Assembly (NCBI RefSeq): GCF_900108185.1
Contig: NZ_FNVA01000002.1
Coordinates: 620,001 to 684,000, forward strand
Source: Bryocella elongata
GTDB lineage: Bacteria > Acidobacteriota > Terriglobia > Terriglobales > Acidobacteriaceae
Direction of reading: 5' to 3'
Length of the DNA stretch: 64,000 nt
Part shown: positions 3,506 through 62,179 of the stretch, one piece after another
How the letters are laid out: every line of letters starts with the position of its first letter
Position numbering within the stretch: the stretch's first letter is position 1
Notes under the pieces: model-generated
Told to the model about the DNA's origin: nothing
Seen by the model: only the letters and a program-made list of their open reading frames with translations
The model's database searches: none
Translations under genes and position numbers: made by a program

Positions 3506-3540
3506 AGCCCGGGTCCCTGGAGGGACCCGGGGCACCCGAT
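3506..3540 (-). repeat. Palindromic repeat with GGGGCACCC flank, downstream of punA
   Basis: An 11-bp perfect stem (CCCGGGTCCCT at 3508-3518, AGGGACCCGGG at 3521-3531) is followed by GCACCCGAT. It lies 12 bp beyond the punA stop codon and could act as its terminator, although no U-run follows. Related copies are at 17466-17505, 40836-40874 and inside rimO at 61597-61626. Confidence 0.8.
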
Positions 3541-6340: not shown

Positions 6341-6374
6341 GGGAGGTGAGGCGTATCCAGGAAGATCAGGAATC

Positions 6375-6458
6375 CAGTTCTCAGTTCTCAGTTCTCAGTT
6401 CTCAGTTCTCAGTTCTCAGTTCTCAGTTCTCAGTTCTCAGTTCTCAGTTCTCAGTTCC
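6375..6458. repeat. Tandem heptamer CAGTTCT, 11 perfect copies plus one variant
   Basis: Eleven uninterrupted copies of CAGTTCT begin at 6375 and are followed by CAGTTCC (6452-6458). The run lies in the divergent region between the MmcQ gene and murD. It is the longest and cleanest heptameric repeat in the window. Confidence 0.97.
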
Positions 6459-6564
6459 CAGATTCCAGTTTCGAGCTGCGGGTTTTCTCGGGGAATTGTA
6501 GCTCCAGGTTTCGGAGGTGCATGGTCACATCCAATCGACGCGGGCTTCGATTAGGCTGTTAGGC

Positions 6565-13317: not shown

Positions 13318-13373
13318 GAGCTTCGGGTTTCGAGCTTCGGGTTTCGAGCTTCGGGCTTCGAGCTTCGGGCTGC
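13318..13373. repeat. 14-bp (2 x 7) tandem repeat GAGCTTCGGGTTTC, four copies
   Basis: Four copies with small changes: two GAGCTTCGGGTTTC, one GAGCTTCGGGCTTC and one GAGCTTCGGGCTGC. The unit itself splits into two related heptads. It lies between the convergent murC and methyltransferase genes. Confidence 0.92.
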
Positions 13374-17465: not shown

Positions 17466-17505
17466 AGCCCGGGTCCGAGAGTCCGGACCCGGGGCACCCG
17501 ATTCG
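17466..17505 (-). repeat. Palindromic repeat with GGGGCACCC flank, downstream of the aldehyde dehydrogenase
   Basis: A 10-bp perfect stem (CCCGGGTCCG 17468-17477, CGGACCCGGG 17484-17493) followed by GCACCCGATTCGG. It begins 10 bp after the aldehyde dehydrogenase stop codon, between that gene and DUF779. The arms differ from the copy at 3506-3540 but keep base pairing. Confidence 0.8.
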
Positions 17506-37708: not shown

Positions 37709-38848
37709 CTAGCTGAACATCTCCTTGACCTTGTCGAAGAGTCCGCGCGAGGTGGGGGTGTTCTCCATCTTGATCTCGTCGGAGAGCTGCCGAAGGAGAT
37801 CCTTCTGCAGCTTGTTGAGTTTGGTTGGCGTCTGCACGCGGACCTCGACGATGAGGTCGCCCTTGCCATAGGAGCTGAGGTGCGGCACGCCCTTGCCCTT
37901 GAGCTTGAACTCCTTGCCGGACTGCGTACCTTCGGGGACCTTGAGGGTCTCCTTGCCGTCGAGGGTCGGGACTTCGATCTCCGCGCCGAGGGCGGCCTGC
38001 GTAAAGCTGATGGGGATCGAGCAGTGGATGTCGTCGCCATCGCGCTCGAAGAACTTGTGCGCTTTGACGGTGAGGACCACGTACAGATCGCCGGGTGCGC
38101 CGCCGAAGCGGCCCGCATCGCCTTCGCCGGTGTAACGGATGCGTGTGTCCTGCTCGACGCCGGCGGGTACCTTGACGAGGATCTTGTGCTCGCGCTGAAT
38201 GCGGGCTTCGCCGTGGCAGGTCTTGCAGGGGTTGCGGACGACGGTGCCGGTACCGCTGCAGATGGGGCACGTGCGCGCGATGGAGAAGAAGCCCTGCTGC
38301 GAGCGGACCTGTCCTCGACCGCCGCACTGCTGGCAGGTCTCGGGAGCCTTGCCACCTTCGGAGCCTGAGCCTTCGCAGACTTCGCAGGCTTCGGCGCGAC
38401 GGATGGTGACTTCGCGCTCGACGCCGAAGACGGCTTCTTCGAACTCGAGGCGCATGTCGAACTTGAGGTCGCGGCCACGCTGCTGACGCGAGGCGCGTCG
38501 TCCACCCTGGCCGCCCATGTTGAACATCTCGCCGAAGAGATCGCCGAAGATGTCGTTCAGGTCGGCGCCCTGCTGGAAGGGGCTGCCCTGTCCACCGGGG
38601 AAGCCACCGGAGCCGTTGACGCCGGCGTGGCCATAGCGGTCGTAGGCGGCGCGCTTGTCGGGATCGCTCAGTACCCCATAGGCCTCGCTGCAGGCCTTGA
38701 ACTTCTCTTCGGCCTCAGGATTGTTGGGGTTGCGATCGGGATGATACTGCATCGCGAGCTTGCGATAGGAGGTCTTGATCTCCTGGTCGGAGGCGGTGCG
38801 CTCGACGGAGAGGATCTCGTAGTAGTCAAGTTTCATCGTAGGGGGCAT
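37709..38848 (-). CDS. dnaJ: Chaperone protein DnaJ
   Basis: The Hsp40 co-chaperone of DnaK, 379 residues. Domains in order: J domain with MKLDYYEILSVERTASDQEIKTSYRKLAMQYHPDRN (HPD motif), Gly/Phe region (GGFPGGQGSPFQQGADLNDIFGDLFGEMF), a zinc-binding domain with four CxxCxGxG-type repeats (CEVCEGSG, CQQCGGRG, CPICSGTG, CKTCHGEA), and the C-terminal substrate-binding domain. The ATG at 38848 or the one four codons later may be the start; neither has a strong ribosome-binding site. It is the last gene of hrcA-grpE-dnaJ; no dnaK is in the window. Confidence 0.97.
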   Translation of the reverse strand: MPPTMKLDYYEILSVERTASDQEIKTSYRKLAMQYHPDRNPNNPEAEEKFKACSEAYGVLSDPDKRAAYDRYGHAGVNGSGGFPGGQGSPFQQGADLNDIFGDLFGEMFNMGGQGGRRASRQQRGRDLKFDMRLEFEEAVFGVEREVTIRRAEACEVCEGSGSEGGKAPETCQQCGGRGQVRSQQGFFSIARTCPICSGTGTVVRNPCKTCHGEARIQREHKILVKVPAGVEQDTRIRYTGEGDAGRFGGAPGDLYVVLTVKAHKFFERDGDDIHCSIPISFTQAALGAEIEVPTLDGKETLKVPEGTQSGKEFKLKGKGVPHLSSYGKGDLIVEVRVQTPTKLNKLQKDLLRQLSDEIKMENTPTSRGLFDKVKEMFS

Positions 38849-38859
38849 GAATCGATTCC

Positions 38860-38894
38860 AGTGAGTAGAGAGTAGTGAGTAGAGAGTAGAGAAA
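38860..38894. repeat. GTGAGTA/GAGAGTA heptads between grpE and dnaJ
   Basis: Five consecutive 7-bp units: GTGAGTA, GAGAGTA, GTGAGTA, GAGAGTA, GAGAAAG. The array fills most of the 59-bp gap between the two genes. Confidence 0.9.
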
Positions 38895-40835: not shown

Positions 40836-40874
40836 AGCCCGGGTCCCTTGAGGGACCCGGGGCACCCGATTCGG
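40836..40874 (-). repeat. Palindromic repeat with GGGGCACCC flank, downstream of the Mrp-like gene
   Basis: An 11-bp perfect stem (CCCGGGTCCCT 40838-40848, AGGGACCCGGG 40851-40861) followed by GCACCCGATTCGG. The arms are identical to those of the copy at 3506-3540. It lies 8 bp beyond the Mrp-like gene's stop codon. Confidence 0.85.
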
Positions 40875-60508: not shown

Positions 60509-62179
60509 CTAATCGAGGATCTCCGCCACCACGTCATAGTCGTGGGATTCGGTGATGCGGGCGCGGTAGAAGGTGCCGGGGACGAGCTCCTCGTGGGGGC
60601 CGAAGTCGTTGATGAGGACCTTGCCGTCGATCTCGGGAGCCATGTTGAGCGCACGGCCCTGCCAGAGGAGGTCGGTCTCTTCGCTGGGGCCCTCGACGAG
60701 GACTTCGATCTCACGGCCGACCCACTGCCTGCGCTTCTTCCTGCTGATGGTCTGCTGGAGCTTCATCAGCTTGCGGCGGCGGGCTTCGATCGTCCTCTTC
60801 GGAACCTTCTCGTCGAGGTCGAAGGCCCTGGCGCCTTCTTCGTCGGAGTAGCTGAAGACGCCGAGCCAGTCGAGCTGGGCCTCTTTGACGAAGGCGAGCA
60901 GCTCTTCGAAGTCTTCCTCGGTCTCGCCGGGGAAGCCGACGATGAAGCTGGTGCGCAGGGTGAGATCAGGGACGATGTTGCGGGCCTTGTCGATGATCTG
61001 GAGGAAACGGTCGGCGGTGCCTCCGCGCTTCATGCGCTTGAGGACGGCGGCAGAGGCATGCTGCAGCGGCACGTCGAGGTACTTGGCCACGTTGTCGTGC
61101 TTCGCGATGGACTGGAGCAGGCGCGTGGTGATCTTGTTGGGGTACGCGTAGAGGAAGCGCAGCCAGTGCAGGCCCTCGATGGGGGCCAGCGCGTCGAGCA
61201 GGTCAGCTAGCTCGGGACGCTTGCCGGTAGCTGGATCCTTCGGGAGATCCTCGCCGAAGCAGGTGGTGTCCTGGCCGATGAGGGTGATCTCGCGGACGCC
61301 CTGGGCGATGAGCTGCTTTGTTTCCTTGACGATGGAATCGATGGGCCGCGAGCGGAACTTGCCGCGCAGCTGCGGAATGATGCAGAAGGTGCAGGGGTGA
61401 TCGCAACCTTCCGCGATCTTGATGTAGGCGGAGGCGCGCGGCGTGGTGAGGATGCGCGGGGTCTCTGCGGTGTAGAGGTAGGTAGGTAGGGCAGCGGTGG
61501 CGCCGTCCCAGCTCTCGCGGGAGAAGCGGCCGGACTGCTCGCGGGCGTCGCCTTCGGGTCTTGAGGCCGCTGCGCCGGAGGCCGTAGCGGCTCCTTCCCA
61601 CATCTCTTCGAGATGTGGGGCACCCGCCTCATGCTGGATCTGCGCGCCATTGCCTTCAGGGCGGGAGTGCTGGTTCACTGCGGAGGCGTGGCGGGCAATC
61701 TGGGCGCTAGAGAGGATCGCGAAGGGCGAGTCGGTGGGCGTCGGAGCGGGTCTGGAGAGGCCTGCGGCCTCGAGGATGGCGTCGAGCTCGCCGGTGCCGA
61801 CGACGGCGTCGACCTCGGGGATGTTCTTGCGGATCTCATCGCGGTAACGCTCGACGAGACAGCCGGCGACGATGAGGCGCTTCGCGCGGCCGCCGTTGGC
61901 GATCTTGTGCTGGACCATCTCGAGGATGGTGTCGACGGACTCCTGCTTGGCGGAGTCGATGAAGCTGCAGGTGTTGACGACGAGGATGTCGGCGTCCTCG
62001 GCTTTGGGCGTTAGTTCGCCGCCTGCCGAGTGGATGAGGCCCATCATGACCTCGGAGTCAACGAGGTTCTTGGGGCAGCCGAGCGAGACGAATCCTACCC
62101 GGGGAGTTCCGGGGATCTGCAGATCGAGGATGTCAGTCTCGGGAGCGGCGGAAATTTCGGCCGTGGGGGAGATACTCAC
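60509..62179 (-). CDS. rimO: Ribosomal protein S12 methylthiotransferase
   Basis: RimO adds a methylthio group to Asp88 of ribosomal protein S12 with two iron-sulfur clusters. The N-terminal MTTase domain contains SLGCPKNLVDSE (Cys35), NTCSFIDSA (Cys71) and IVAGCLVERY (Cys107). The radical-SAM motif CDHPCTFC (Cys259, 263, 266) follows AYIKIAEG, and a C-terminal TRAM domain is present. At 556 residues it is about 100 longer than usual. The extra length lies between TGELDAIL and YLYTAETPRILTT (about residues 140-232), a low-complexity Ala/Gly/Arg/His-rich segment encoded partly by a palindromic repeat at 61597. Confidence 0.96.
   Translation of the reverse strand: MSISPTAEISAAPETDILDLQIPGTPRVGFVSLGCPKNLVDSEVMMGLIHSAGGELTPKAEDADILVVNTCSFIDSAKQESVDTILEMVQHKIANGGRAKRLIVAGCLVERYRDEIRKNIPEVDAVVGTGELDAILEAAGLSRPAPTPTDSPFAILSSAQIARHASAVNQHSRPEGNGAQIQHEAGAPHLEEMWEGAATASGAAASRPEGDAREQSGRFSRESWDGATAALPTYLYTAETPRILTTPRASAYIKIAEGCDHPCTFCIIPQLRGKFRSRPIDSIVKETKQLIAQGVREITLIGQDTTCFGEDLPKDPATGKRPELADLLDALAPIEGLHWLRFLYAYPNKITTRLLQSIAKHDNVAKYLDVPLQHASAAVLKRMKRGGTADRFLQIIDKARNIVPDLTLRTSFIVGFPGETEEDFEELLAFVKEAQLDWLGVFSYSDEEGARAFDLDEKVPKRTIEARRRKLMKLQQTISRKKRRQWVGREIEVLVEGPSEETDLLWQGRALNMAPEIDGKVLINDFGPHEELVPGTFYRARITESHDYDVVAEILD
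61597..61626 (-). repeat. Palindromic repeat with GGGGCACCC flank inside rimO
   Basis: CCCACATCTC (61597-61606), loop TTC, GAGATGTGGG (61610-61619), then GCACCCG. It encodes about residues 187-195 (PHLEEMWE) of RimO, in the insert. The flank matches the three intergenic copies, and its orientation to transcription is the same. Confidence 0.8.

Follow-up and report, generated by a model that had tools for sequence, protein, structure and literature searches.

In-frame palindromic repeats are already known in bacteria. In Rickettsia, dispersed palindromes called Rickettsia palindromic elements (RPEs) are fused in frame into conserved protein genes, and a guanylate kinase bearing one is described as translated and active, with a changed substrate affinity (PMC2229807, PMC10969869). 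REPs of the GTAG/CGTC kind are presented as tagged palindromes of 20–40 bp that are mostly intergenic; some lie in frame in genes for repair proteins, helicases and tRNA synthetases, two Xanthomonas species have different REPs near one recB site, and the shorter RPE-4 and RPE-6 are placed among the CGTC REPs (PMC3733652). The same paper describes TIRYT, terminal inverted repeats linked to tyrosine transposases, in Acidobacteria including Granulicella mallensis, and Granulicella aggregans appears in a RepRanger table (PMC12306157). The main text of PMC3733652, whose intragenic REPs are listed in a supplement, mentions neither RimO nor MiaB, and a literature search on rimO with palindromic repeats gave none on this topic among the matches listed.

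We analysed a 64-kb stretch of DNA (the window) from a genome whose closest named relatives are Acidobacteriaceae, in which a palindromic repeat lies inside rimO. This case is a variant of the known systems, with another tag and a reused slot. RPEs are described as specific to Rickettsia and 105–146 bp long, whereas the rimO repeat is about 30 bp, carries a GGGTGC tag and belongs to Acidobacteriaceae; that is, it is not an RPE. It qualifies as a REP in the broad sense, being a palindrome of 20–40 bp with many copies that are mostly extragenic, but its unpaired tag in the copies read is GGGTGC/GCACCC in place of the GTAG or CGTC of the superfamilies in PMC3733652, which places it outside those groups. 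Unlike the REPs described there, several unrelated families occupy one slot across the genus. TIRYT shares the phylum, and Y1 transposase genes flanked by inverted repeats also occur in the source genome; however, no copy of the rimO repeat was found within about 1.5 kb of the three Y1_Tnp genes recognised there, whereas a different repeat, AGGGGCTTYAGCCCCTGAGGG, flanks one of them and occurs in RimO of two congeners (G014 and G018). Within the literature searched, what is new is the tag, the kind of bacterial host and the sharing of one slot among several families.

A dispersed repeat lies in frame in rimO

The features of the rimO locus are as follows.

60509-62179, minus strand: rimO, ribosomal protein S12 methylthiotransferase, an ORF of 556 codons (556 aa; TIGR01125)
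61463-61783, minus strand: inter-domain linker of RimO, residues 133-239, called slot 1, supported by pLDDT and linker comparison
61567-61623, minus strand: 57-nt (19-codon) insertion, from DNA alignment with the sister G009 and with G019, G016 and G026; its ends are ambiguous by a few nucleotides
61597-61626, plus strand: dispersed repeat unit, hairpin CCCACATCTC-TTC-GAGATGTGGG (61597-61619) followed by a GCACCCG tail
61382-61405, minus strand: radical-SAM motif C259-x3-C263-x2-C266, intact and invariant in a 54-sequence alignment
61223-61243, minus strand: slot 2, residues 313-319 after GEDL, 7 aa in the source RimO, with repeats or variable sequence in several relatives

The inverted repeat at 61597-61619 is perfect, with 10-bp arms flanking TTC, and on the rimO strand the unit is read through an open frame as GAPHLEEMW; the peptide stretch relevant to the translation of the insert is GAPHLEEMWEGAATASGAAA. 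DNA folding of the repeat stretch gave -12.1 kcal/mol (z -4.0 relative to shuffles). The palindrome occurs once in the window, where 0.01 occurrences with up to three mismatches are expected by chance. We searched the source genome (G000; 5.67 Mb in 16 contigs) with GATGTGGGGCACCC, allowing one mismatch, and obtained 46 matches, compared with 0 for the reversed control. A blast search with 101 nt of rimO confined the repeated part to 61597-61626, which was identical at 30/30 positions to a copy on contig C15. A mere chance palindrome in rimO was ruled out by the low expectation, the 46 matches against 0 and the identical 30-mer elsewhere, and this reading retains practically no probability. 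The palindromic repeat that had been predicted in frame inside rimO is thus present and is a member of a genome-wide family.

The copies read are built approximately as ATCCTGCGAA, CCCACATCTC, a loop (usually 6 or 3 nt), GAGATGTGGG and GCACCCGG, with GGGTGC (GCACCC on the other strand) as the unpaired tag, and many show matched changes between both arms. At one mismatch, at least one family match was found in 37/41 genomes, the source genome included; the reversed control also gave 1-4 matches in many of these genomes, and only higher counts support the family there.

The original prediction had likened the rimO copy to intergenic copies in the same window, which are listed below.

3508-3537 (about), plus strand: intergenic hairpin with a different palindrome and the GGGGCACCCG tail in common with the rimO copy
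17468-17499 (about), plus strand: intergenic hairpin with a different palindrome and the same shared GGGGCACCCG tail
40838-40867 (about), plus strand: intergenic hairpin with a different palindrome and the same shared GGGGCACCCG tail

These hairpins sit between likely genes and have the palindrome CCCGGGTCC...GGACCCGGG. The likeness holds for the GGGGCACCCG tail and for the orientation; it does not extend to the palindrome, which differs within the window. In all three hairpins, 15 nt separate the end of the tail from the end of an ORF on the minus strand (3553, 17515 and 40883). The window also contains arrays of 7-nt units with a spacing of 14 (1003-1046, 6361-6463, 13318-13373 and 38846-38889), and heptamer-like arrays resembling them are found in frame in the RimO linkers of two congeners (G007 and G015).

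Other in-frame copies in the source genome

At least 8/48 classified copies lie in frame in conserved genes, and the other copies were not recognised as genic. The in-frame copies are in RimO, ClpB, PheT, RdgB, an Fpg/Nei-like glycosylase, an ArnT-like transferase and, twice, an Lhr-like helicase (non-rimO loci L007, L028, L033, L035, L024, L184 and L027); both Lhr-like copies belong to one helicase frame on contig C14, reached through the overlapping loci L184 and L027. The classification covered 49 rows with 48 hairpins, L021 being dropped as it lacked a hairpin, and four of the 46 genome matches (L177, L178, L183 and L187) fall outside it. Fifteen rows (16 ORFs) were inspected residue by residue and the rest were judged by ORF score; L003, L011, L014 and L016 had middling scores, and eight intragenic copies is therefore a minimum. 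This share is far below the roughly 87% ORF coverage of the window, a shortage such as purifying selection would give.

In an NCBIfam scan of the seven proteins, only ClpB scored above its curated cut-off; PheT, RdgB, Fpg/Nei, ArnT and Lhr were below theirs, some since the locus cuts the gene. Where ClpB, RdgB and PheT were aligned with solved structures, the repeat coincided with alignment gaps. The RdgB loop has 34 residues in the source genome vs 15-26 in 15 other parsable genomes (16/22 loci were parsable), in which no repeat was recognised by eye. Several of the non-rimO genes with in-frame copies are repair or quality-control genes.

All six in-frame copies in the GGGTGC sense use the frame GAP..., although another frame is open in each; if open frames were chosen with equal weight, this would have a probability of about 0.007. 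Both copies in the GCACCC sense use the frame TxQxRDVGH. Selection for a benign peptide would explain this bias, as would a bias in target sites.

The repeat lengthens an older linker of a RimO with an intact core

The protein was identified as RimO by TIGR01125 (515.5 bits against a cut-off of 356.95; profile positions 1-431/432). Its model matched 4jc0, the RimO of T. maritima, over residues 27-556 (Z 43.9, rmsd 2.0, 420 residues aligned), and the MTTase, radical-SAM and C-terminal parts of the RimO fold were all recovered in this match. The cluster cysteines C35, C71, C107, C259, C263 and C266 are invariant in the 54-sequence alignment. That is, the three N-terminal cysteines and the radical-SAM CxxxCxxC are kept, as originally predicted, and the catalytic residues are intact.

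Between VGTGEL and TPRIL, the linker of the source RimO spans 107 aa. In the AlphaFold2 model, 358/556 residues have pLDDT >=90, and pLDDT falls below 50 at residues 162-204 and 217-229; the insert, at about 185-205, overlaps the former stretch and no folded domain is predicted there, which was the outcome expected of this check. Granulicella sp. S156 RimO carries no repeat but an unrelated 11-codon spacer, and its pLDDT drops under 50 at 155-189 and 200-211. One modelled relative without the repeat is thus equally low in confidence in the linker. Linkers are 87-105 residues long in congeners without a recognised repeat there (217 in G012) and 57-89 residues in other genera of the family. An extra segment of about 90 residues had been proposed: the linker is present, at 107 aa, and 19 codons of it are an insertion relative to the sister genomes. 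Since congeners without the repeat have linkers of similar length, the repeat did not make this segment. The possibility that the whole linker was built from the rimO repeat was rejected, as the linker, itself variable, is older than the repeat and gained 19 residues from the insertion.

Insertion relative to sister genomes

The 57-nt insertion spans most of residues 185-205. From Q[ILVR]xxE to SR[PA]EG[DE], the spacer has 21 codons in the source genome vs 2 in the empty form, and 7/24 same-genus rows have the 2-codon spacer. In a tree of the RimO core, built without linkers, the source genome groups with (G009,(G006,G025)), all of which have the 2-codon spacer; the support of 91/94 for this grouping is moderate. 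The tree does not include G011, whose linker was examined separately. The predicted entry of a dispersed palindromic repeat into coding sequence, with the frame preserved, is supported, and the sister genomes are without it.

The repeat accounts for about 30 nt of the insertion. When the other approximately 27 nt (61567-61596) were searched by blast as a second repeat, only weak, short matches were obtained; as this part is not recognisable as a repeat, the 57-nt insertion need not be one event. No target-site duplication was evident by eye in the alignment.

Repeats in the RimO slots of relatives

Among 28 same-genus genomes searched, the source included, RimO was readable in 25; in G013, G020 and G021 it was split over two contigs or not found. 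Dispersed repeats occupy slot 1 or slot 2 in 8/25 genomes (G000, G001, G005, G007, G014, G015, G018 and G022), and they represent several unrelated families in these two slots only. For each of the seven congeners, the slot inserts correspond to repeats dispersed in that genome, with 0 matches for each control. GGGTGCCCNATCTTCGNCGA has 31 matches in G015, one of them seen in rimO, and three in G005, two of them in rimO; AGGGGCTTYAGCCCCTGAGGG has nine in G018 (2 in rimO) and three in G014 (1 in rimO). GTCATCTCGACCGNAGC gave 47 matches in G001, 81 in G007 and 27 in G022, with at least one in rimO in each among the matches listed, and CCTTCGCCNNNGGCGGAGGACC gave 46 in G022, two in rimO and two more just past it. 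We also tried GTCATCTCGACCGNAGC as the pattern of the G018 inserts and discarded it, as the rimO copies there differ; G018 is counted by its AGGGGCTTYAGCCCCTGAGGG matches only. Slot 1 of Granulicella bog_404 (L096) holds GAPRLDSETWV, a translated repeat copy, and by eye the heptamer-like arrays of G007 and G015 lie in slot 1.

Tentatively, the two RimO loops may be reusable docking slots in the genus, which unrelated families enter, and perhaps cleanly leave, near the same codon. The families concerned would be two kinds of GGGTGC hairpin, AGGGGCTTYAGCCCCTGAGGG, GTCATCTCGACC, CCTTCGCC-GGCGGAGGACC and the heptamer-like arrays. If true, this would be a genus-wide diversification of a conserved ribosome-modifying enzyme by mobile DNA.

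RimO as a target

MiaB, the RimO paralogue, was found in 24/25 genomes. It failed as a clean negative control, as in 2/24 (G007 and G015) the C-terminal domain contains a repeat of another family; the other 22 MiaBs were judged only by an unbroken full-length match. The MiaB inserts are in frame at about the same C-terminal place, ALKGTGFSPS...EGASAPEG and ALNGHGFSRA...RGALAPEG (L213 and L214; G007 and G015). For RimO 8/25 vs MiaB 2/24, Fisher's test gave p=0.07, or p=0.14 without the source genome and p=0.02 with RdgB pooled; as evidence of RimO enrichment these are post hoc comparisons with borderline outcomes. The insertion process is general, and a preference for RimO is at most suggested.

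We consider it rather unlikely that slot 1 is a sequence- or structure-specific hot spot, struck near the same nucleotide by GGGTGC repeats in several lineages. In G000 and G005, GGGTGC elements do start equally far past the Q[IL]xxE codons, and L096 deviates from this by no more than one codon; rimO takes a large share of the genome matches in G005 (2/3), G018 (2/9) and G014 (1/3), and the counts for RimO exceed those for MiaB. However, this last difference is not significant unless RdgB is pooled, RimO was chosen for study because of its repeat, and the presence of unrelated families and heptamer-like arrays in one slot is explained by a permissive linker without targeting. The inserts of G000, G005 and L096 at the same position could instead come from one old insertion. 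A single ancestral GGGTGC insertion, lost or overwritten in most lineages and kept in these three, would account for the nearly identical position and the same orientation and phase. We regard it as improbable, since the 2-codon spacers in 7/24 same-genus rows would need several clean losses, the G005 hairpin is unlike that of G000 and its pattern has 0 matches in G000, and the inserts of G000 and G005 each match repeats of their own genome. Least credible among the readings of a genuine repeat is a functional co-option of the hairpin in the mRNA, or of the inserted peptide, to tune the synthesis of RimO or its encounter with the ribosome; the hairpin is stable and the site is an inter-domain linker, but the repeat is absent from sister genomes and other families occupy the same slot.

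Proposed origin of the insertion

Very probably, judging from sequence comparison and structural modelling, a REP-like non-autonomous repeat (a hairpin with a GGGTGC tag, some 30 bp long or slightly longer) inserted into rimO, in a linker predicted to be disordered, and was kept in frame. We infer that it entered rimO in the lineage of the source species. Its landing site in the disordered linker between domains, together with an orientation and a phase that give no stop and no cysteine (GAPHLEEMW...), would have let the copy survive, and the 19 added residues would have little effect on the fold. RimO presumably remains active, and retention was probably near-neutral rather than adaptive.

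The family probably spread by transposition-like copying, the enzyme for which was not found: no GGGGCACC-tailed hairpin lies within about 1.5 kb of the three Y1_Tnp genes of the genome, a comparison in which a diverged enzyme could be missed. A different palindromic repeat flanks each of these genes (L039, L040 and L041). The same process has probably put other repeats into slot 1 and the second loop of congeners, and rimO-type repeats into other conserved genes of the source genome. The survivors would be those copies that lie in phase within disordered loops and contain no stop.

Significance

A genus of soil bacteria here provides a replicated natural experiment, with one enzyme, two slots, several families, and both empty and filled sisters. 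The RimO slots make it testable whether such a repeat is a neutral passenger in a disordered linker or changes the function of the enzyme, and the system makes testable whether the choice of frame has been selected.
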